Source: Polaromonas sp. | Lineage (GTDB): Bacteria > Pseudomonadota > Gammaproteobacteria > Burkholderiales > Burkholderiaceae_C | Direction of reading: 5' to 3' | Assembly: GCA_025352405.1 (NCBI GenBank) | Contig: JANXTM010000135.1 | Coordinates: 1 to 34,868, forward strand | Length of the DNA stretch: 34,868 nt | Shown: piece by piece, positions 21,778 through 33,790 of the stretch | Position numbering within the stretch: position 1 is the stretch's first letter | Layout: every line of letters begins with the position of its first letter | Program-made: the position numbers and the translations under genes | The notes under the pieces: model-generated | The model's database searches: none | Seen by the model: only the letters and a program-made list of their open reading frames with translations | Told to the model about the DNA's origin: nothing

Positions 21778-23262
21778 TCAGGAGCTGCAGCTGATTTCAA
21801 TTGAAGCAGCCCAGTCAGGCGGAAAATCGGCCTGAGCCTCGTGCCCTGCGTGCTCATCAAATGGGGCCTGGAGCAGCGTCAGCAAGGTGTTGACACCGGA
21901 AAAGTCTTTTAGTTTCGCGGCCCGTATGGCTTCCTCGCCCAGATGGTTTCGCAGTACGAATTTGGGGTTATTTTTAAGCATTAAATCGGCCCGTGCGGCA
22001 GCATTTACATGGGCTAGGCGATCTGAATAATGCAGCGCCCAGGCATTGAAAGACTCACGGTCAAAAAACAAGTCGCGCACCGCCTCATGCCCACTTTGGG
22101 GCGTGAACTCGCCCAGGCGTCGCCAGAACATGGTGTAGTCCACCTTGTTGCTGGCGAGTAGTTTAAAGGCGCTTTCTACCAGGGCCTTGTCATCTGGCTG
22201 GGCATCGCTGAGGCCCAGTTTGGTGCGCATTTTGGCCTCCAGTGCATCAGGAAATACGGTTTTATATGACTCCAGCGCGGCCAGGGCCTGTTCCTGGTCG
22301 TCTATTAGCGGCAACATAGCCTGGCCGAGGCAAAACAGATTCCAGTAAGCCATGTTCGGCTGCTTGTTGTAGGCATACCGGCCCTGGGTGTCTGAATGGT
22401 TGCAGACATGGCCCGGGTCAAACGCATCGAGAAACTGGAAGGGGCCGTAGTCAATCGTCAAGCCCAGAATACTCATGTTGTCTGTGTTCATAACGCCGTG
22501 GCAAAAGCCGACGGCCTGCCAAGCGGCCATCAGGTGCGCTGTGCGTTCGCTGACCGCCTGCAGCAAGGCCGCATATGGCTGCGCGGCGTCCCTGCAGGCA
22601 GGGTAAAAATTATCAATGACGTAGTCGGCCAGGGTTTTCAGTTCAGCGTGCTGGTCGGTGTAACTGAAGTGCTCGAAGTGACCAAAGCGGATAAAGCTGG
22701 GCGCTGTGCGGGTCACCACGGCGGCGGTTTCTAACTCTTCCCGGCGCACGATGGCGTCCGAGCCCGTCAGGCAAAGCGCTCGCGTGGTCGGTATGCCCAA
22801 GGCGTGCATGGCTTCAGAGCACAGATATTCACGGATCGAGCTGCGCAGCACCGCGCGGCCATCGCCCATGCGAGAGTAGGGCGTGCGGCCTGCGCCTTTG
22901 AGCTGTATCTCCATGCCGCCATTGGGAGTTTTCAATTCACCCAGCAACAGGGCACGGCCATCGCCCAGCTGCCCGGCCCATTGACCAAACTGGTGGCCGC
23001 TGTAGACGCCCGCCAGGGGTTCTGAGCCCGGCAAGATCTGGTTACCCGAGAAGGCGTTAAGCGCCTCGCGCGATTCAAACCAGGCCGACTCCAGGCCCAG
23101 CTCACGTGCCACCGCTTCGTTGCGGCTGATCCAGTAAGGGTCTGGCAGCGCCTGCGGTTGCACGCGCGTATAAAAACTTTCGCCGAGTTGCACAAAGCGG
23201 TTGTTCCAGCGCATTAAGCGGTCGGAGTTTGTGAGAGGGTTTGTGGGTACGTCAATGGTCAT
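21778..23262 (-). CDS. selO: Protein adenylyltransferase SelO (YdiU)
   Basis: SelO is a pseudokinase-fold enzyme that transfers AMP to Ser, Thr or Tyr residues of proteins in redox homeostasis. The 494-residue product has the signature [40 protein letters not shown] (nucleotide-binding Lys), and [20 protein letters not shown] (metal and catalytic residues). The C-terminus is ISCSS: bacterial Cys stands where the human protein has selenocysteine in U-S-S. The Cys is TGC and the TGA that follows is an ordinary stop. I chose ATG 23262 ([10 protein letters not shown]); the frame continues to 23400 without family similarity. It precedes msrB by 45 bases. Confidence 0.95.
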
Positions 23263-23417
23263 AGCCAAATTGTCTCCTACCTGGTTAAAGCCGTTGGCGG
23301 CCAGTGGATTCACGGGGATTCCCGCATGACGATGCGTCGATGTTGCGGCATGATGCGCCAACTGCTTTAAATTGATATTTAGAGACCAGACCAACACCAT
23401 TCAAGGGAGACTTTTAG

Positions 23418-25046
23418 ATGCTTGGGTTAATGCAAAGCCAGCCACTGCTGATTTCAGGTTTGATTGAGTTCGCGGAGCGCCACCACGGAGACGCAGAAAT
23501 AGTCTCGCGCCGGGTGGAGGGTGACATTCATCGCTACACCTACAAGGATTCCGCTGGACGCGCGCGCCAGGTTGCCAATGCGCTGGATAGCCTGAAGCTG
23601 GTTTTCAGCGACCGCGTGGCCACGCTGGCCTGGAACGGCTACCGCCACTTCGAGTTGTACTACGGCGTGAGTGGTTCGGGCCGCGTTCTCCACACCATCA
23701 ACCCGCGCCTGCACCCTGACCAGATCGCCTGGATAGCCAACCACGCTGAAGACCAGGTGCTGTGCTTTGACCTGAGCTTTTTGCCGCTGGTGCAAGCCGT
23801 GCACAGCCGCTGCGCCACCATCAAGCACTACATCGCCCTGTGCGATCAGGACAAGCTGCCAAAAGATTCCGGTGTGCCTAATCTCATCAGCTATGAAAGC
23901 TGGATTGGTACGCAACCGGGCACCTACACCTGGCCGACGTTTGATGAAAATACGGCGTCGAGCATGTGCTACACCAGCGGCACCACCGGAAACCCGAAGG
24001 CAGCGCTGTACAGCCACCGTTCCAGTACGCTGCACGCTTACGCTGCGGCGCTGCCGGATGTCATGGGCATGTCGGCACGCGACGCCATTTTGCCGGTGGT
24101 GCCGATGTTTCACGTCAATGCCTGGGGCATTCCGTATTCGGCAGCGCTGACCGGTGCCAAGCTGGTCTTTCCCGGACCGGCCATGGACGGCAAGTCAATT
24201 TATGAACTGATGGAGGCCGAAAAAGTCACCTACGCTGCGGGCGTGCCCACGGTATGGCAAATGTTGCTTGGTCACCTGACCGCCAACAATTTGAAGTTTT
24301 CAACCCTCAAGCGCACTGTGATTGGCGGCTCGGCTTGCCCGCCCGCCATGATCAAGGCATTCAACGACGACTACGGCGTCGAGGTGCTGCACGCCTGGGG
24401 CATGACCGAAATGAGCCCGCTGGGCACGCTGTGCACGCTTAAAAACAAGCACGACGCATTGCCCGACGACGAAAAAATGAAGATTCGCCTCAAACAGGGG
24501 CGGGCCATTTACGGCGTCGACATGAAAATCGTGGATGAAGCTGGCAAGGAATTGCCTTGGGACGGCAAAACCTATGGCGACCTGTACGTCAAGGGCCCGT
24601 GGATTGTGCGCGCGTATTTTAAAGGCGAAGGCGGTGACCCGTTGGTCGACGGCTGGTTCCCGACCGGTGACGTCGGCACGATTGACGCTGATGGCTACCT
24701 GCAAATCACTGACCGCAGCAAGGACGTCATCAAGTCGGGCGGGGAATGGATCAGCTCGATTGACATCGAAAACATTGCTGTCGCGCACCCGGCCGTGGCC
24801 ATGGCGGCCTGCATCGGCGTGCTGCACCCTAAATGGGACGAGCGGCCCATCATTGCGGTGGTTAAAAAGCCTGGCATGGACGTCTCGCGCGAGGCGCTCA
24901 TCGCGTTTTTTGAAGGCAAGACGGCCAAGTGGCAAATCCCCGATGACGTGGTGTTTGTCGACGCCATACCGTTGGGTGCCACCGGCAAGATGCTCAAAAC
25001 CCGGCTGCGCGAAATCCTCAAGGATTACAAGTTGCCGGGTACCTAA
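23418..25046 (+). CDS. Acyl-CoA synthetase (AMP-forming, medium/long-chain type)
   Basis: This 542-residue ANL-superfamily enzyme activates a carboxylic acid to its CoA thioester through an acyl-adenylate. Motifs in order: YTSGTTGNPKAALYSHRSS (ATP loop), the GWFPTGDVGTIDADGYLQIT adenylation core with its Asp, DRSKDVIKSGGEWISS (hinge), and the C-terminal catalytic Lys in GATGKMLKTRLREI. Overall length and motif wording resemble the fatty-acid or methylmercaptopropionate-CoA ligase branch; chain length cannot be read from sequence. The ATG at 23418 follows AAGGGAGA. It leads the plus-strand catabolic block. Confidence 0.93.
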   Translation: MLGLMQSQPLLISGLIEFAERHHGDAEIVSRRVEGDIHRYTYKDSAGRARQVANALDSLKLVFSDRVATLAWNGYRHFELYYGVSGSGRVLHTINPRLHPDQIAWIANHAEDQVLCFDLSFLPLVQAVHSRCATIKHYIALCDQDKLPKDSGVPNLISYESWIGTQPGTYTWPTFDENTASSMCYTSGTTGNPKAALYSHRSSTLHAYAAALPDVMGMSARDAILPVVPMFHVNAWGIPYSAALTGAKLVFPGPAMDGKSIYELMEAEKVTYAAGVPTVWQMLLGHLTANNLKFSTLKRTVIGGSACPPAMIKAFNDDYGVEVLHAWGMTEMSPLGTLCTLKNKHDALPDDEKMKIRLKQGRAIYGVDMKIVDEAGKELPWDGKTYGDLYVKGPWIVRAYFKGEGGDPLVDGWFPTGDVGTIDADGYLQITDRSKDVIKSGGEWISSIDIENIAVAHPAVAMAACIGVLHPKWDERPIIAVVKKPGMDVSREALIAFFEGKTAKWQIPDDVVFVDAIPLGATGKMLKTRLREILKDYKLPGT

Positions 25047-25199: not shown

Positions 25200-26435
25200 A
25201 TGAAATACGCTGTCAGGTTTGTTGCATTGGGTGTCGCGCTGGCTTGTTCCGGTGCAGTGTGGGCTCAAAAAGGTGAGACCGTCAAAATTGCCATGATCGA
25301 AGGGCTGTCCGGCCCGTTCGGCAATGTTGGACAGAACCAACTTAAAAGCTGGCAGTTCGTGGCCGAGAGCATGAACGGTGCCAAAAACCCGGCAGGTGTG
25401 AAATTTGAAATCGTCGGCATGGACAGCAAAGGCTCGCCGCAGGAAGCGCTCAACACCTTCAAAGCGGCGGTTGATCAGGGCTTTCGCTACATCGCTCAGG
25501 GCAACGGATCTGGCGCTGCATTGGCTTTGAGCGACGCCGTTGCAAAGCACAATGAACGCAACCCCGGCAAGGAAGTGGTTTACCTGAACTATGCCGCTGT
25601 TGATCCGGCGCTGACCAACGAGAAATGCAATTACTGGCATTTCCGCCTTGACGCAGACACATCCCAAAAAATGGAAGCCTTGACCAGCTTCATGAAAGAC
25701 CAGCCCAAGGTTAAAAAAGTCTACCTACTGAACCAGAACTATTCGCATGGCCAGCAAGTCGCCAAGTACTTCAAGGACGGCATGGCTCGCAAGCGCCCGG
25801 ACGCGTCAATTGTTGGCGATGATCTGGTGCCGCTCGGTCAGGTCAAAGACTTTGCACCATATGTCGCCAAAATCAAGCAGTCTGGTGCCGACACCATCGT
25901 CACCGGTAACTGGGGTGCCGATTTGACCCTGTTTGTCAAGGCACTCAATGACGCCGGTCTCAAGCTGCCGCTGTACACCTACTACGCGGCTGTCTCGGGC
26001 ACACCGACCGTGCTGGCATCTGGCGGTGAAGGTGAGGTTTATCAAATTTCATACGCGCATTCCAACTACACCGGCGTCATGGGGCAGTTGGCCAACGACT
26101 TTCAGAAGAAGTTCGGCGACGACTTTTACACCTTCTCCATCTACAACGGTCTGGTGCTCATGGCCGACGCCATGGCCAAGGCCAAGTCCACGGACTCCGT
26201 CAAGGTCGCTGCTGCCATGAATGGCATGCGCTTCAAGGGTTTTAACGGCGATTCCGAGATGCGTAAATCGGACAACCAGATGCAGCAGGGGCTTTACATC
26301 TCTAAGTGGCAAAAGGTCGATAAAAAGAACCCGTACAGCGTTGAAAAAACTGGCTATACCTTTGCACCTGTCAAATACATCGAGGCTTATGTCGCCAGCA
26401 CGCCGACCAGTTGCCAGATGAAGGCACCGACTTAA
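25200..26435 (+). CDS. Liv-type ABC transporter periplasmic substrate-binding protein
   Basis: The 411-residue protein has a signal peptide ending GAVWAQ and a type-1 periplasmic binding fold (VKIAMIEGLSGPFGNVGQNQ at the start, IAQGNGSGAALALSDAVAKH for the ligand-site loop, VKKVYLLNQNYSHGQQVAKY). It belongs to the leucine/amide-type (HAAT) family, whose members bind branched-chain amino acids, amides, urea or aromatic and aliphatic acids. Its place between an acyl-CoA synthetase and beta-oxidation genes favours a carboxylate ligand; that is inference. The ATG at 25200 has ACGGAG upstream. A terminator-like hairpin follows before the permease genes. Confidence 0.93.
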   Translation: MKYAVRFVALGVALACSGAVWAQKGETVKIAMIEGLSGPFGNVGQNQLKSWQFVAESMNGAKNPAGVKFEIVGMDSKGSPQEALNTFKAAVDQGFRYIAQGNGSGAALALSDAVAKHNERNPGKEVVYLNYAAVDPALTNEKCNYWHFRLDADTSQKMEALTSFMKDQPKVKKVYLLNQNYSHGQQVAKYFKDGMARKRPDASIVGDDLVPLGQVKDFAPYVAKIKQSGADTIVTGNWGADLTLFVKALNDAGLKLPLYTYYAAVSGTPTVLASGGEGEVYQISYAHSNYTGVMGQLANDFQKKFGDDFYTFSIYNGLVLMADAMAKAKSTDSVKVAAAMNGMRFKGFNGDSEMRKSDNQMQQGLYISKWQKVDKKNPYSVEKTGYTFAPVKYIEAYVASTPTSCQMKAPT

Positions 26436-26531: not shown

Positions 26532-27521
26532 ATGCTTGATTTTTTGACATCTTTAGGTTTAAGCCCCGGATTCATCGAGTTCTTCACGATCTCGCTGCTC
26601 AACGGCATGAGCTACGGCTTGCTGCTGTTCATGCTCAGCTCCGGCCTGACGCTGATTTTCAGCATGATGGGCGTGCTCAATTTTGCGCATGCCAGCTTTT
26701 ATATGTTGGGTGCATACGTTGCCTACAGCGTGACTGCGCTGGTTGGTTTTTGGTGGGCTTTGCTGTTTGCGCCCTTGTTGGTGGGCTTGCTGGGGGCCGG
26801 ATTTGAGCGCTATTGCCTGCGCCGGGTACACCAGTTCGGGCATGTGCCCGAGCTGTTGATTACCTTCGGCCTGAGCTACATCCTGCTGGAGCTGGTGCAA
26901 TTGGTCTGGGGCCGCAGTTCGGTCGACTACCGAGTCCCTGCAGCGCTTGATGGGCCGTTGTTCACGCTGTTTGGCACGCAGTTTCCGCTGTACCGCGGTT
27001 TCATGATGCTGGTGGCCGTGCTGATGTTGATTGCGGTTTGGCTGCTGCTCACGCGGACCCGTATTGGGCTGGTGATTCAGGCTGCGCTCACACACCCTGA
27101 GATGGCGCAGTCGCTGGGGCACAACGTGCCGCGGGTGTTCATGCTAGTGTTCGGCGGTGGTGCGGCGCTGGCGGGTCTGGCGGGCGTGATTGGCGGCAAC
27201 GCCTTTGTAACCGAACCCGGCATGGCAGCTACAGTCGGATCGGTCATTTTTGTAGTCGTCGTGGTGGGCGGCATGGGCTCGCTGGCCGGCGCGTTTTTGG
27301 CGTCATTGTTGATTGGCATTCTGCAGACTTTTGCCGTGGCCATGGACGGCTCGCTCATGTCGGGCGTCAGGATGCTGGGTATGCTGGTAACGCCTGAGAC
27401 TTTTGGCTATGCGGTACTCAAGCTCAAGATCAGCCAGGTTGCACCTATTCTTCCCTACCTGTTTTTAGTGCTGATGCTGATATTCCGGCCTAAAGGCTTG
27501 CTTGGCACGCGTGAGGGTTGA
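26532..27521 (+). CDS. livH: Liv-type ABC transporter permease, LivH family
   Basis: The 329-residue inner-membrane permease has about eight hydrophobic helices. Family segments include NGMSYGLLLFMLSSGLTLIF, SMMGVLNFAHASFYMLGAY, and the C-terminal VVVVGGMGSLAGAFLASLLI with QVAPILPYLFLVLMLIFRPKG. LivH and LivM form the heterodimeric channel. The ATG at 26532 begins 24 bases after the intergenic hairpin. It is separated from livM by three bases. Confidence 0.94.
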   Translation: MLDFLTSLGLSPGFIEFFTISLLNGMSYGLLLFMLSSGLTLIFSMMGVLNFAHASFYMLGAYVAYSVTALVGFWWALLFAPLLVGLLGAGFERYCLRRVHQFGHVPELLITFGLSYILLELVQLVWGRSSVDYRVPAALDGPLFTLFGTQFPLYRGFMMLVAVLMLIAVWLLLTRTRIGLVIQAALTHPEMAQSLGHNVPRVFMLVFGGGAALAGLAGVIGGNAFVTEPGMAATVGSVIFVVVVVGGMGSLAGAFLASLLIGILQTFAVAMDGSLMSGVRMLGMLVTPETFGYAVLKLKISQVAPILPYLFLVLMLIFRPKGLLGTREG

Positions 27522-27524
27522 TTC

Positions 27525-28817
27525 ATGACGAAACAGTTTTATCAATTCAAGCCGCTGAATATTGGGCGTTTTTTGGTGTGGTCTGCGTTTGCACTGGTGC
27601 TTGCCATAGCACCTTTGATATTTACCACCAGCCTGAGTCACACCATCCTCAGCCAAATGGGTATCGCGATTATTGTTTGCCTCAGCTACAACATTTTGCT
27701 GGGGCAGGGCGGCATGCTCAGCTTCGGTCATGCGGTGTATTCCGGTATGGGCTCTTTTTTGGCGATACACACGCTGAACCTTGCCAGCAAGGGGACGCTG
27801 GCCATCCCTGTCAGCCTGATTCCCATCGTCGGAGGTGTTGCAAGCATGCTGGTGGCTGTTGTGATGGGTTGGGTCACTACCAAAAAATCAGGCACCACCT
27901 TTGCAATGATCACATTGGGTGTGGGCGAACTCATCTGGGCCATGTCGCTGATGTTCCCGGAATTTTTTGGCGGCGAAGGTGGAGTTTCGGGCAACCGCGT
28001 CACTGGCTCCAAGCTGTGGGGCATCACCTACGGCCCCCAAATCCAGCTTTACTACCTGATTGCAATCTACACACTGGTCTGCACGGCGCTGATGTTCGCC
28101 TTCACGCGCACGCCGCTGGGACGCATGCTCAACGCCGTGCGGGACAACCCCGAGCGGGTGGAGTTTGTCGGCTACGACACGCAAAAAGTACGCTATTTTT
28201 CATTTATCGTGGCTGCGTTTTTTGCAGGTATTTCGGGTGGTCTGGCCGCGCTAAATTTTGAAATCGTGACCTCTGAGGTGGTCAGTGGTTATCGCTCCGG
28301 GGCCTACCTGCTGTTTACCTTTCTGGGCGGCGCAACCTTCTTTTTTGGACCCATTTTGGGGGCCATCCTGATGGTGCTGGCTTTTGTTCTGCTCAGCGAA
28401 TTCACCAAAGCCTGGTTGTTGTACCTTGGCCTAATATTTTTATTCATGGTGATGTACGCACCTGGGGGCGTGGCCAGTCTGATCATGATGAACCTGCGCG
28501 TGGCCATGTACGGTCACTTGCGAAAGCTTTGGGTTGGCTACCTTGCCCTTGCACTCACGGCGCTGGTCGTGCTGTTCGGTGCTGCGGCGATGATCGAGAT
28601 GGTCTACCACCTGCAACTGAATTCTGCACTGGGTTCGGAGCTGACCTTCATGGGTGCCAAACTCGATTCAAAGGGCTTGAACAGCTGGTTTGGCTCCGCC
28701 TTTGTCATGCTCACCGGGCTGGGCCTGTTTGAGGTCTGCCGGCGGCAATACCTGCGCGAATGGGGCCAGATTCAGGAAGATATTGAAAAAGAAATCAAAC
28801 GAAGGGAAGCGCTGTGA
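27525..28817 (+). CDS. livM: Liv-type ABC transporter permease, LivM family, with C-terminal extension
   Basis: The 430-residue permease carries the LivM core (YNILLGQGGMLSFGHAVYSG, LNAVRDNPERVEFVGYDTQK as the ATPase-coupling loop, FLGGATFFFGPILGAILMVL). After the usual end of the core near MYAPGGVASLIMMNLR (about residue 325) come roughly 100 further residues. These hold two predicted transmembrane helices (YLALALTALVVLFGAAAMIE and FGSAFVMLTGLGLFEV) and a charged tail (QIQEDIEKEIKRREAL). The role of this tail is unknown. The gene overlaps livG by GTGA. Confidence 0.93.
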   Translation: MTKQFYQFKPLNIGRFLVWSAFALVLAIAPLIFTTSLSHTILSQMGIAIIVCLSYNILLGQGGMLSFGHAVYSGMGSFLAIHTLNLASKGTLAIPVSLIPIVGGVASMLVAVVMGWVTTKKSGTTFAMITLGVGELIWAMSLMFPEFFGGEGGVSGNRVTGSKLWGITYGPQIQLYYLIAIYTLVCTALMFAFTRTPLGRMLNAVRDNPERVEFVGYDTQKVRYFSFIVAAFFAGISGGLAALNFEIVTSEVVSGYRSGAYLLFTFLGGATFFFGPILGAILMVLAFVLLSEFTKAWLLYLGLIFLFMVMYAPGGVASLIMMNLRVAMYGHLRKLWVGYLALALTALVVLFGAAAMIEMVYHLQLNSALGSELTFMGAKLDSKGLNSWFGSAFVMLTGLGLFEVCRRQYLREWGQIQEDIEKEIKRREAL

Positions 28818-29608
28818 CTGTTGTTCCCCATTCAGCTGGGGGTTACGCTCTTGAGCTCAAAGACTTACGCAAGAGTTTTGGAAAATCTGAAATTATTCGC
28901 GGCATTAATATGGCTATTCCCAGCGGGGAGCGGGTTGGAATTATTGGTCCCAACGGTGCTGGCAAGTCCACATTGTTCAACCTCATCAGTGGCAGGTTTG
29001 AACCTACCAGCGGGCAGGTTTTGCTCAACGGGCAGCGCATTGATGGAAAAAAACCGTTTGAAATCAACCGCATGGGTTTGAGCCGCAGTTTTCAGATCAC
29101 CAACATCTTCCCCAAACTCAGCGTGTTTGAAAACCTGCGCTGCGGCGTGCTGTGGAGTCTGGGTTACAAGTACACTTTTTTGAAGTTTCTGGCCGATCTG
29201 GACGATGCCAACGAGCGGGCTGAAGAACTTATGCGCATGATCAAGCTAGATAAAAAGCGCGACATACTAGCCATAAACCTGACTTATGCTGAACAACGCG
29301 CGCTTGAAATCGGCATCACCATTGCGGGCGGTGCCAATGTCATCTTGCTGGACGAACCCACGGCTGGAATGAGCCGCTCGGAGACCAGCCGTTTTATCAG
29401 CCTGATAAAAGAGGTCACCATCGGTAAAACCCTGTTGACGGTGGAGCATGACATGGGCGTAGTGTTCGGCCTTGCGGACAAGATTGCCGTGGTGGTTTAC
29501 GGCGAGGTCATTGCTTACGACAAACCAGAAGCCGTGCGTGCAGATCAACGGGTGCAGGAAGCCTATTTGGGGTCGTCTGTGGCCGACCAACAGGCAGGAG
29601 GCCATTGA
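28814..29608 (+). CDS. livG: Liv-type ABC transporter ATPase, LivG family
   Basis: This 264-residue ATPase powers the importer. The Walker A motif GPNGAGKST is intact with Lys51. Walker B (VILLDEPTAGM) and the switch His (TVEHDMG) are present. The signature motif reads LTYAEQ at residues 156-161, where Ala159 replaces the Gly that is normally kept even in LivG proteins (LAYGDQ in E. coli as I recall it). The start is GTG 28814, overlapping the livM stop as GTGA. Several codons near 28880-28960 are AT-rich compared with neighbours. Confidence 0.93.
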   Translation: MTVVPHSAGGYALELKDLRKSFGKSEIIRGINMAIPSGERVGIIGPNGAGKSTLFNLISGRFEPTSGQVLLNGQRIDGKKPFEINRMGLSRSFQITNIFPKLSVFENLRCGVLWSLGYKYTFLKFLADLDDANERAEELMRMIKLDKKRDILAINLTYAEQRALEIGITIAGGANVILLDEPTAGMSRSETSRFISLIKEVTIGKTLLTVEHDMGVVFGLADKIAVVVYGEVIAYDKPEAVRADQRVQEAYLGSSVADQQAGGH

Positions 29609-29610
29609 CC

Positions 29611-30306
29611 GTGTTGACTGTTAAAAACCTACATGCCTTCTATGGCAAGAGCCACGTACTGCACGGTGTCTCGTTCGACGTGCAGCCCGGTGAGATCGTT
29701 GCGCTGCTGGGCCGTAACGGATCGGGCCGCTCCACCACTGCCAAAGCCATCATGGGTCTGGTGGATTGCCAAGGCGCCGTCACATGGAAAGGCGGTGAAA
29801 TTGTCGGCAAAGAGGCCTATCAGATTGCCCACCTCGGCATCGGCTATGTGCCTGAAAATCGCGAAATTTTTCCTAAACTGACAGTGCATCAAAACCTGTT
29901 GCTGGGTCAAAAGGGCTCTGGCAAGGCTTCACGCTGGTCTTTCAACGACATGTACACCATGTTCCCGCGCTTGCTGGAGCGCCAACACACAGAAGCTGGC
30001 GTTTTGTCAGGCGGCGAGCAGCAGATGCTGACCCTGTGCCGTACCCTTATGGGCGATCCGGACCTGATAATCATTGACGAGCCTACCGAGGGTCTTGCCC
30101 CAAAAATTGTGGAACTGGTGGGCCAGTATCTGCAAACGCTCAAAGCCAAAGGTATTTCGGTTTTATTGATAGAGCAAAAACTGACTATCGCCATGGCGAT
30201 CTCTGATCGTGCCCTGGTCATGGGCCATGGCAGCATCGTGTTCCAGGGTACGCCGGACAGCTTGCGTGCAGACGCGTACACCCGAAAAGAGTGGCTTGAG
30301 GTCTAG
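29611..30306 (+). CDS. livF: Liv-type ABC transporter ATPase, LivF family, Walker A Lys to Arg
   Basis: The 231-residue partner ATPase has the Q-loop (VPENREIFPKLTVHQNL), an intact signature LSGGEQQML, and Walker B LIIIDEPTEGLAP. The Walker A motif reads GRNGSGRSTT: Arg40 stands where ATPases have the catalytic Lys (codon CGC at 29728-29730). The switch His is Gln (LLIEQKLT), as in LivF proteins generally. I chose GTG 29611 because AGGAGG ends 9 bases upstream; TTG 29605 overlaps the livG stop but is too close to that site. Confidence 0.92.
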   Translation: MLTVKNLHAFYGKSHVLHGVSFDVQPGEIVALLGRNGSGRSTTAKAIMGLVDCQGAVTWKGGEIVGKEAYQIAHLGIGYVPENREIFPKLTVHQNLLLGQKGSGKASRWSFNDMYTMFPRLLERQHTEAGVLSGGEQQMLTLCRTLMGDPDLIIIDEPTEGLAPKIVELVGQYLQTLKAKGISVLLIEQKLTIAMAISDRALVMGHGSIVFQGTPDSLRADAYTRKEWLEV

Positions 30307-30499: not shown

Positions 30500-32599
30500 A
30501 TGACAACTCTTTATGAAGTACACGGCAGCGTGGCTGTGATCGCCCTGAGCAATCCACCCGTCAACGGTCTTGGACACGCCACCCGTCTCAGTATCACTGA
30601 CAATTTGCAGAAAGCCAATTTAGATCCGGCCATCAAATCAATTGTGATCACCGGCGCGGGCAAAGCTTTTTCAGGCGGCGCAGACATCAAGGAATTTGGC
30701 AGCCCAAAGGCCCTGGCTGAGCCCAATTTGCTGAGCGTGATTCTCGCAGTCGAAAATTCTCCCAAGCCCGTGGTTGCGGCTATTCATTCAGTGTGCATGG
30801 GCGGTGGTCTGGAGCTGGCGCTTGGTTGCCATTACCGCATTGCGGCGCCCGGTTGCAGCGTGGCCTTGCCTGAAGTCAAGCTTGGCCTGTTGCCCGGTGC
30901 TGGTGGTACGCAGCGCCTGCCGCGCGCTTTGGGCGTCGAGCCTGCGCTGAACATAATTGTGAGTGGCGAGCCGGTGAAAAGCGAGTTGCTGGCCCAGATT
31001 CCAGGCCAAAAACTGTTTGACAAAATGGCGTCGTCACCTGAATCACTGGCGCAGGAGGCGCTGGCGTTTGCCCAAGCCATTGCTGACACACGCCCGCTGC
31101 CGCTGGTACGCACTCTGCCGTGTAAGCACCGCAATAGCGACGCTTACTTCCAGTTTGCGCGGAATATGGTCAAGGGAATGTCCAAAAACTTCCCGGCTCC
31201 GCTGAAATGTGTTGATGCGGTTGAGGCGGCTACCAAGCGCAAATTTGACGATGGCCTGGCGTTTGAGCGCGAATTGTTTGTCAACCTCATGTGGACGCCG
31301 GAAAGCCGCGCGTTGCGCCATATTTTCATGGCTAATCGCGCGGCAGCCAAAATTCCGGATGTACCGGCCGACACGCCAAAACGCGAGATCAAATCCATCG
31401 CCGTGATTGGTGCGGGCACCATGGGCGGCGGAATCTCAATGAACTTTTTGAACGCCGGTATTCCCGTCAAGATGCTTGAAATGAAGCAAGAAGCGCTTGA
31501 CCGCGGCTTGGCCACAATTCGCAAAAACTACGAAGCGCAGGTCAAAAAAGGCAAGCTCAAACAGGCCAAGTACGAAGAACGTATGGCCATGCTCACCACC
31601 ACGCTGAGCTATGACGACCTGAAAGATGCCGACATGGTGATCGAGGCCGTGTTTGAAGAGATGGGCGTGAAAGAAAAAGTTTTTACCGAGCTTGACCGCG
31701 TGATGAAGCCAGGCGCTATTTTGGCGTCCAACACGTCGACGCTGGACATGAACCAGATCGCTGCATTCACCAAGCGCCCGCAAGACGTAATCGGCACGCA
31801 CTTTTTCAGTCCAGCCAACATCATGAAGCTGCTCGAAGTGGTGCGCGGCGAAAAAACTGGCAAAGACGTGTTGGCCACCGTGATGGCTTTGGGCAAAAAA
31901 ATCCGCAAAACTTCTGTTGTGTCAGGTGTCTGTGACGGCTTTATCGGCAACCGCATGATTGAGCAGTACGGCCGTCAGGGCGGCTTTTTGCTAGATGAAG
32001 GCTGCACACCGGCCCAGGTCGACAAGGCCATCGAGAAGTTTGGTTTTGCCATGGGCCCGTTTCGCATGGGTGATCTGGCGGGCAACGACATTGGTTTTGC
32101 CATTCGTAAGCGCCGGTACCTTGAAAAACCAGACATGAAGTACAGCAAAACGGCTGATTTGCTCTGCGAAAAAGGTCGTTTTGGTCAAAAAACCGGCGCC
32201 GGCTGGTATGACTATGTTGCTGGCAAACGTGACGCCATTCCGAACGCGGAAGTGGTGCAGATGGTGGAGGCGCACCGCGCGTCGCTCGGCATCACCCCGC
32301 GCAAAATTTCTGACGAAGAAATCGTTCAACGCCTGGTGTATTCGCTGGTCAACGAGGCTGCGCACATCCTTGAAGAAGGTATTGCCTCCAAAGCAAGTGA
32401 CATCGACATGGTCTACCTGATGGGATACGGCTTCCCGATCTACCGGGGTGGTCCCATGAACTATGCCGATGAGGTGGGCTTGTTTAACGTGGTGCAGGCC
32501 ATGAACCGTTTCGCACAGAACCCGCTGGACGACGCCAGTTTCTGGAAGCCTGCGCCACTGCTTGCCCGCTTGGCCGCCGAAGGCAAGACCTTTAATTAA
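30500..32599 (+). CDS. Fused enoyl-CoA hydratase / 3-hydroxyacyl-CoA dehydrogenase
   Basis: This 699-residue bifunctional enzyme catalyses the hydration and NAD-dependent oxidation steps of beta-oxidation. The N-terminal crotonase domain (about 1-190) has the oxyanion-hole motifs AFSGGADIKEFG and MGGGLELALGCHYRIA and both catalytic Glu residues (GGGLELALG, LPEVKLGLLPGAGGTQRLPR). The dehydrogenase half starts near residue 298 with IAVIGAGTMGGGISMNFLNA and has the catalytic His in IGTHFFSPANIMKLLEVVRG. A C-terminal domain follows (GYGFPIYRGGPMNYADEVGL). Domain order is as in FadB and FadJ. The ATG at 30500 follows AAGGAAA. The thiolase gene starts 15 bases after the stop. Confidence 0.96.
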   Translation: MTTLYEVHGSVAVIALSNPPVNGLGHATRLSITDNLQKANLDPAIKSIVITGAGKAFSGGADIKEFGSPKALAEPNLLSVILAVENSPKPVVAAIHSVCMGGGLELALGCHYRIAAPGCSVALPEVKLGLLPGAGGTQRLPRALGVEPALNIIVSGEPVKSELLAQIPGQKLFDKMASSPESLAQEALAFAQAIADTRPLPLVRTLPCKHRNSDAYFQFARNMVKGMSKNFPAPLKCVDAVEAATKRKFDDGLAFERELFVNLMWTPESRALRHIFMANRAAAKIPDVPADTPKREIKSIAVIGAGTMGGGISMNFLNAGIPVKMLEMKQEALDRGLATIRKNYEAQVKKGKLKQAKYEERMAMLTTTLSYDDLKDADMVIEAVFEEMGVKEKVFTELDRVMKPGAILASNTSTLDMNQIAAFTKRPQDVIGTHFFSPANIMKLLEVVRGEKTGKDVLATVMALGKKIRKTSVVSGVCDGFIGNRMIEQYGRQGGFLLDEGCTPAQVDKAIEKFGFAMGPFRMGDLAGNDIGFAIRKRRYLEKPDMKYSKTADLLCEKGRFGQKTGAGWYDYVAGKRDAIPNAEVVQMVEAHRASLGITPRKISDEEIVQRLVYSLVNEAAHILEEGIASKASDIDMVYLMGYGFPIYRGGPMNYADEVGLFNVVQAMNRFAQNPLDDASFWKPAPLLARLAAEGKTFN

Positions 32600-32614: not shown

Positions 32615-33790
32615 ATGACTTCAGCTGTAATCGTTTCTACCGCACGTACCCCCCTGGCCAAAAGCTGGAAGGGCTCTTTCAACATGACGCACGGCGCCAC
32701 CCTCGGTGGCCATGCCGTGCAGCACGCTATCCAGCGCGCTGGCATTGATGCCGCCGAGGTTGATGACGTGATCATTGGCTGCGCCACCCCCGAGGGCGCC
32801 ACGGGTGCCAACATTGCGCGCCAGATTGCTCTGCGCGCTGGTTGCCCAGTCACGGTTTCGGGTTACACGCTCAACCGTTTTTGCTCATCCGGCTTGCAGG
32901 CCATCGCCACGGCTGCGCAACGTGTGGTTGCCGGGGAAGCAGACATTTATGTCGCTGGCGGGGTTGAAAGTATTTCATGCGTGCAGCAAGAAATGAATAC
33001 CCACATGCTGCGCGAAGACTGGCTCGCCAAAAACAAGCCCGAGATTTACTGGAACATGCTGCAAACCGCCGAGCAGGTGGCCAAGCGCTACAGCATTGCA
33101 CGCGAGCGCATGGACGAGTACGGTGCCATGAGCCAGCAAAAGGCCACCGCCGCATTGGCCGCTGGCCTGTATGAGGCTGAAATCGCCCCGATTACCGTGA
33201 CGATGGGCATTGCCGACCCGGTGATGGGCCTGAGCACAAAACAGGTCACCGTCAGCAATGACGAAGGCATTCGTGCAGGTACCACCAAAGAAGGTATCAG
33301 CGGCATCAAGCCCGCCATTCCTGGCGGCGTGATTGCAGCCGGCAATGCCAGCCAGTTTTCAGATGGCGGCGGTGCCGTGGTGGTCATGGACGAGACAGTT
33401 GCCGAGCGCAAAGGCCTGAAGCCACTTGGTCGCTTCCTGGGTTTTGCCGTGGCTGGTTGCGAGCCAGATGAAATGGGCATTGGCCCGGTGTTTGCCATTC
33501 CCAAAGTACTGGCCAAGCTGGGCCTGCAGATCAGCGACATTGATTTGTGGGAGCTGAATGAAGCGTTTGCCGTGCAGGTGCTGTACTGCGCCGATAAACT
33601 CGGTATCCCGATGGACAAACTCAACGTCAACGGCGGCGCTATTGCTGTGGGCCACCCTTACGGCGTCACTGGGCAGCGCCTGACGGGTCACGCCCTGATT
33701 GAAGGCAAACGCCGCCGTGCCAAGCGCGTGTGCGTGACGATGTGCATTGGAGGCGGTATGGGTGCTGCGGGGATTTTCGAGGTGCTATAA
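32615..33790 (+). CDS. Acetyl-CoA acyltransferase (3-ketoacyl-CoA thiolase)
   Basis: The 391-residue thiolase cleaves 3-ketoacyl-CoA with CoA to release acetyl-CoA. The acyl-accepting Cys90 is in [12 protein letters not shown]. His347 lies in [20 protein letters not shown] and the general-base Cys377 in [18 protein letters not shown]. The catalytic histidine motif is GHPYG rather than the more common GHPLG or GHPFG. A GGAGAA site precedes the ATG. With the upstream fused enzyme it forms a compact beta-oxidation pair followed by a terminator. Confidence 0.96.

Follow-up and report, generated by a model that had tools for sequence, protein, structure and literature searches.

The window analysed here, the whole stretch of 34,868 nucleotides of Polaromonas sp. 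DNA (contig JANXTM010000135.1), encodes an ATP-binding cassette (ABC) importer of the Liv type, composed of a periplasmic binding protein, the permeases LivH and LivM and the ATPase subunits LivG and LivF (Table 1). From the motifs of LivG and LivF it appears reasonably likely that the ATP sites of this importer are permanently unequal, one hydrolysing and one mainly binding. Its substrate is probably a carboxylic acid. In an ABC dimer each ATP lies between the Walker A motif of one subunit and the signature of the other. An earlier note on this DNA had described an arginine in place of the Walker A lysine and a glutamine at the switch-His position of LivF, an alanine for the fourth-position glycine in the LivG signature and an intact second site (Walker A and His of LivG, LSGGEQ of LivF), and all these residues are confirmed. 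The own residues of LivG (Lys51, Gln94, Glu181 and His212) are consensus. At the Q-loop Gln position LivF has a glutamate, a feature absent from the earlier note. The proposal that three special changes fall on one composite site is correct in its assignment to one site; the switch glutamine, in contrast, is generic in LivF, as found in the following survey.

The Walker A, Q-loop, signature, Walker B and switch motifs were tabulated for 300 distinct complete LivF/LivG pairs, 285 from genomes and 15 from plasmids; 35 of the 335 LivF-like loci were excluded, being duplicates or having an absent or short LivG. One genome can contribute several pairs. The Lys-type pairs, mostly from Pseudomonadota, were sampled by convenience from the best hits, from own-genome paralogues and from regions picked by hand among the listed matches. 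The LivG Walker A lysine, Walker B Asp-Glu, Q-loop glutamine and switch histidine are each conserved in 300/300 pairs, as is the SGG of the LivF signature, and all deviations among the tabulated motifs are confined to one composite site. The switch position of LivF is never a histidine: it is a glutamine in 292 pairs and a lysine in eight (VDKN or VDKD; L023, L172, L186, L191, L305, L308, L320 and L324). The Q-loop position is Glu in 285 pairs, Gln in 14 and Asp in one. The LivF of Escherichia coli K-12, outside the 300, also has the switch glutamine (LVEQN) and the Q-loop glutamate, and 1ji0, a Thermotoga LivF-like structure, aligns with VPEGR and VEQ. Judged by these motifs, the switch glutamine is a family trait of LivF. 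Because LivF is without the switch histidine throughout, one non-consensus ATP site is, at the level of motifs, general among the Liv importers read, and the asymmetry reaches further than the earlier note supposed.

The Walker A arginine of LivF and a non-Gly fourth signature position of LivG are found in 200 and 193 of the 300 pairs, respectively, both counts being inflated since the sampling was centred on the clade of the window. This clade comprises 192 pairs. Its LivF has the Walker A arginine in 192/192, and the fourth LivG position is Ala in 175, Ser in 16 and Pro in one, never Gly; the proline occurs in the signature LTYPEQ encoded on a plasmid of Rhizobium sp. ACO-34A (L328). The 100 Lys-type pairs have Gly at this position in 99 cases and Ser in one, L006 (G000:C159:2332-3027), where the LivG signature is MTISEQ. 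Every LivF of the clade also has the Q-loop glutamate and the Walker B Asp-Glu, and the residue following its switch glutamine is Lys in 189 and Arg in three, compared with Asn in 95 of the 108 LivF outside the clade. In all 192 clade pairs the non-consensus residues thus lie within one composite site, the other site being consensus. Further positions mark the clade among 161 representatives: LivF Gly205 (59/59 inside vs 0/102 outside), LivF Trp228 (58/59 vs 1/102) and LivG Arg40 (56/59 vs 10/102).

The earlier note had also allowed for a sequencing error at codon 40. This doubt, and with it a decaying gene, can be set aside with near certainty, as the same residues are found in 192/192 pairs, from independent assemblies and plasmids. 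In addition, the frames are open, three base changes are needed to turn codon 40 into a lysine codon, and the fold of LivF is intact, its AlphaFold2 (AF2) model having a predicted local distance difference test (pLDDT) score of 91.2 and a best match in the PDB to 1ji0 (template-modelling (TM) score 0.95). In 188 clade LivF the arginine is written by five codons (CGC 126, CGT 34, CGA 17, CGG 9, AGG 2) and no lysine codon occurs, AGG being one base away from Lys; this speaks for selection on the arginine. The fourth LivG position, read in 186 of this set, is written by eight codons, for Ala or Ser and never for Gly. These 188 LivF overlap with the 192 and are not identical to them: four were removed later for want of a complete LivG, which was missing or cut, and the plasmid loci were added. 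The clade ranges over Comamonadaceae, other Burkholderiales, Alphaproteobacteria and others, including further families and orders of the phylum, with plasmids from Burkholderiales, Rhodobacterales, Rhizobium and Thalassospira. The LivF identity within it falls as low as 49%. Of 399 same-family genomes, 315 have a match to LivF with an E-value of 1e-75 or lower, and part of these were read. As every own-branch relative read keeps the pattern, the one-sided engine is probably built in and not the product of an error. As far as searches of the open-access literature reach, the pattern is a conserved and undescribed variant; no description of a degenerate ATP site in Liv importers was found among the titles and abstract openings listed.

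In a tree of the 161 representatives, made with the trait columns left out, the clade has a support of 100. The Walker A lysine changes twice in this tree and the LivG glycine is lost twice, and one change of each kind maps to the stem of the clade. The second non-Gly change is that of L006, whose LivF has the lysine. The second change to arginine is found in a neighbouring lineage of eight pairs (seven in the tree; support 97), in which the LivG glycine is kept in 8/8 and the residue following the LivF switch position is Asn in 8/8. A member of this lineage, L002 (G000:C82:2298-2978), is the second Walker A Arg LivF of the genome of the window; its LivG glycine is intact, and DEISEGLAP follows its Walker B. 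In a more careful tree of 62 rows, with the whole second Arg lineage and its neighbours and the rest drawn at random from the 161, the clade is supported at 100/100, and a single Arg clade is rejected (approximately unbiased test, p 7e-5, the group having been defined in view of the first tree). The co-occurrence check that the earlier note had proposed is thus positive within the clade. Outside it, the kind of case that the note had named as a refutation, an arginine with an intact LivG signature, does exist, and a general rule by which an arginine in LivF entails an alanine in LivG is ruled out by the second Arg lineage. Even the positive result rests on one event, because both losses share one stem branch: as mapped on the tree, the perfect co-occurrence of Arg and non-Gly is a single event. 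An independent-pairs test of Arg against non-Gly has no power, as the tree offers two pairs only.

The clade is also marked by a C-terminal extension of LivM. Behind the conserved LivM core there are a median of 118 residues in the clade (189 loci) vs 23 in the Lys-type loci (maximum 54; 82 loci). LivM was found at 189 of the 192 clade loci, at 82 of the 100 Lys-type loci and, in a first reading, at none of the eight loci of the second Arg lineage; from wider stretches it was then found for seven of these eight. Tails of at least 81 residues are present at 186 of the 189 clade loci, the others being L166 (frameshift), L241 and L266 (shorter tails), and when fuller sequences are taken, the tail reaches 90 residues or more in 104 of 106 clade LivM frames, an exception being L356 with 55. 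In G300 (L349/L166) an apparent frameshift, close to where the extension begins, interrupts the LivM frame, with the L349 tail still encoded; it may be a sequencing error or decay. Outside the clade the tails are of at most 29 residues in the second Arg lineage (7/7), of at most 27 in its Lys neighbours (5/5) and of 24 in E. coli. Of seven other plasmid LivM, five have an uncut C-terminal end, with tails of 24 to 37 residues, L336 is cut, and L341 continues in a single frame of 878 residues, probably a permease-ATPase fusion. No extension was seen outside the clade among LivM with a separate, whole end. In the AF2 model (20 rows, pLDDT 87.1) the extension consists of a helix (residues 332-365), a β-hairpin (372-381) and a 45-residue helix (385-429), the second half of which is charged; two hydrophobic stretches are present in 104/104 clade tails. 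We infer that the charged end is cytoplasmic, and, more speculatively, the extension may lie against the nucleotide-binding domains (NBDs). The tail matches no Pfam family. A sequence search of the PDB with LivM gave no match with an E-value of 0.01 or lower, and a fold search gave none with an E-value of 0.001 or lower; its best plausible hits, the ABC permeases of PsaBC and BhuUV, are weak (TM 0.38 and 0.34).

The site formed by the LivG P-loop and the LivF LSGGEQ would bind and hydrolyse ATP, because its motif set is complete. The site formed by the LivF P-loop (Arg40, Glu82, Gln189) and the LivG LTYAEQ would bind nucleotide with poor or no hydrolysis. Roughly one ATP would then be spent per import cycle, with nucleotide retained at the LivF site. 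Of the earlier prediction, by which one site hydrolyses and the other mainly binds, the asymmetry is fixed clade-wide, and hydrolysis at one site only is what the motifs would suggest. The best reading of these motifs is that the clade may be an extreme form of the family-wide Liv asymmetry, to which it adds the Walker A arginine, the loss of the LivG signature glycine, the Lys/Arg beside the switch glutamine and the LivM extension. It is possible, though somewhat doubtful, that the ATP site was switched off for good as LivM gained its two extra helices with their long charged end, the extension reading or clamping the permanently ATP-loaded side of a one-ATP-per-cycle importer. Speculatively, Lys190 and the LivM tail are candidate compensating parts.

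Several points weigh against permanently unequal sites. The main contrary fact is the invariant Walker B glutamate of LivF (Glu157, 192/192), a residue that a completely inactive site could do without. The clade pattern, as a single evolutionary event, does not by itself show a dependence between the two changes, and the second Arg lineage, with its intact LivG glycine, shows that the arginine does not imply a change on both faces. The LivF-LivG heterodimer is our assumption, taken from the gene pairing and from the E. coli system, and a search by sequence gave no Liv permease structure.

The invariant Glu157, together with the Lys/Arg190 of all clade pairs (Asn in 8/8 of the other Arg lineage), is in agreement with hydrolysis at both sites, Arg replacing Lys, Ala or Ser replacing Gly, and Lys190, beside the switch, taking over part of the catalytic role. 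This is improbable, as LivF has no switch histidine, ABC proteins usually lose hydrolysis when the Walker A lysine is changed to arginine, and CFTR G551D affects the glycine at signature position 4. It is rather unlikely, too, that the clade adds nothing special, the LivF site being already non-catalytic across Liv importers and Arg40 and Ala159 near-neutral changes inherited from one founder. The LivF switch residue (Gln or Lys in 300/300) points in this direction, as do the variation among Ala, Ser and Pro in the clade LivG, the second origin of the arginine with the glycine kept and the serine of the Lys-type pair L006; however, Arg40 shows no reversion in 192 pairs and is written by five codons, and the fourth LivG position, free to be Ala, Ser or Pro, never returned to Gly. 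A degenerate site that is nucleotide-free and merely holds the dimer together, perhaps aided by the LivM extension, would fit the changes on both faces and an extension that is seen in the clade only. This is highly improbable, given that 11/11 alignment rows retain the P-loop glycines, Ser41, Thr42 and Walker B Asp-Glu in LivF.

Asymmetric ATP use with one degenerate site is known from the exporters MRP1 and TM287/288, and it is shared by TAP; TAP and MRP types were the comparison made in the earlier note. In TAP (ABCB2/B3), according to a review (PMC7756269), the Walker B glutamate and the H-loop are changed. Such a replacement is not found here (LivF Asp-Glu in 192/192), and TAP/MRP is rejected as the closest parallel. 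In the sterol exporter ABCG5/ABCG8 (PMC7756502, PMC7756269), one composite site has a Walker A Lys-to-Arg change (GSSGCGRAS) and an altered partner signature (ISTGE) and is stated to be hydrolysis-inactive. The clade combines the same two kinds of change, and among the systems compared ABCG5/G8 is, by analogy, the closest documented pattern, closer than TAP. This is a likeness of pattern and not of kinship, presumably convergent: ABCG5/G8 is an exporter of another fold, and its signature is altered at position 3 (in ABCG5), that of the clade LivG at position 4. Among importers, RbsA and NupO of Bacillus subtilis are predicted to have one degenerate ATP site, with a second Walker A without lysine (PMC11466899); they differ in having fused NBDs, in importing sugars or nucleosides and in that the degenerate site is predicted only. 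In the E. coli importer DppBCDF, without DppA, ATP analogues occupy one of the two subunits only; unlike here, both Dpp subunits are described with functional motifs, and two-ATP hydrolysis is proposed by the authors (PMC12136057). The E. coli LivFGHM system with LivJ/LivK (Liv/HAAT) shares the set of binding protein and H-M-G-F genes, the BPD_transp_2 type of permease and the LivF switch Gln and Q-loop Glu. It differs in the LivF Walker A lysine, the LivG signature LAYGDQ and the short LivM tail (24 residues).

Table 1. Features of the importer and its gene cluster in the window.
Feature	Positions	Strand	Remark
LivG Walker A GPNGAGKST (Lys51)	28946..28972	+	consensus
LivG signature LTYAEQ	29279..29296	+	Ala159 = GCT at 29288-29290, in place of fourth-position Gly
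LivG switch His212	29447..29449	+	consensus
LivF Walker A GRNGSGRST	29710..29736	+	Arg40 = CGC at 29728-29730
LivF Glu82	29854..29856	+	at Q-loop Gln position
LivF signature LSGGEQ	30004..30021	+	consensus
LivF Walker B Asp156-Glu157	30076..30081	+	kept
LivF Gln189 and Lys190	30175..30180	+	Gln189 at switch-His position
LivM residues 313-430	28461..28814	+	clade-specific C-terminal two-helix extension (AF2)
Acyl-CoA ligase gene	23418..25046	+	NCBIfam equivalog 3-(methylthio)propionyl-CoA ligase, 1027 bits vs cut-off 822; first gene of conserved cluster
Periplasmic binding protein	25200..26435	+	Peripla_BP_6
LivH-type permease	26532..27521	+	BPD_transp_2
LivM-type permease, 430 aa	27525..28817	+	BPD_transp_2
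LivG ATPase subunit	28814..29608	+	consensus P-loop half-site
LivF ATPase subunit	29611..30306	+	degenerate P-loop half-site
Enoyl-CoA hydratase/3-hydroxyacyl-CoA dehydrogenase (FadB-like)	30500..32599	+	
Thiolase	32615..33790	+	

The assignment to Liv/HAAT is based on the single cluster of a binding protein, two BPD_transp_2 permeases and two ATPases, and on the C-terminal BCA_ABC_TP_C domain (PF12399) of LivG, at 35 bits against a cut-off of 25.5. The NCBIfam equivalog cut-offs of the E. coli type are missed by a wide margin (LivF 166.5/441 bits, LivG 165/362), as are those of Urt (UrtE 221.6/285.8, UrtD 195.2/304.1), and the closest named relatives of the LivF are from Polaromonas and other Comamonadaceae. 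The LivF start is a GTG, 9 bases behind AGGAGG (29596-29601); an alternative TTG at 29605 is just 3 bases behind it. The order of the cluster, ligase, binding protein, LivH, LivM, LivG, LivF, FadB-like protein and thiolase, is matched in every gene order listed for the 60 loci with full flanks, where H-M-G-F and the FadB-like gene are present in 60/60, the ligase and the binding protein in 59/60 each and the thiolase in 57/60. On a Paracoccus plasmid the ligase also adjoins the importer, and on other clade plasmids dehydrogenases and further catabolic genes lie beside it. Because these neighbours point to acyl-coenzyme A (CoA) catabolism rather than to branched-chain amino acids, the substrate near the window is probably a carboxylic acid, to be activated with CoA and β-oxidised after import. 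Beside the cluster, a divergently read gene (21778-23400, minus strand) encodes a SelO protein adenylyltransferase. Elsewhere, a LivF-like match with two internal stop codons (L015, G000:C31:313-933) adjoins a LivG with LPGGVR and is perhaps a decaying copy.

Exporters provide the best-known examples of degenerate ATP sites, and here the pattern occurs in a widely spread importer family. The results point to the whole Liv family as asymmetric, with a permease extension accompanying the strongest asymmetry. The graded natural states (Lys with Gly, Arg with Gly, and Arg with Ala, Ser or Pro) form a comparison series for the question whether an ABC importer needs one or two hydrolysis events per substrate. 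If an ATP site was indeed switched off as the LivM extension was gained, this importer would show how an ABC motor of two strokes evolves into one of a single stroke.

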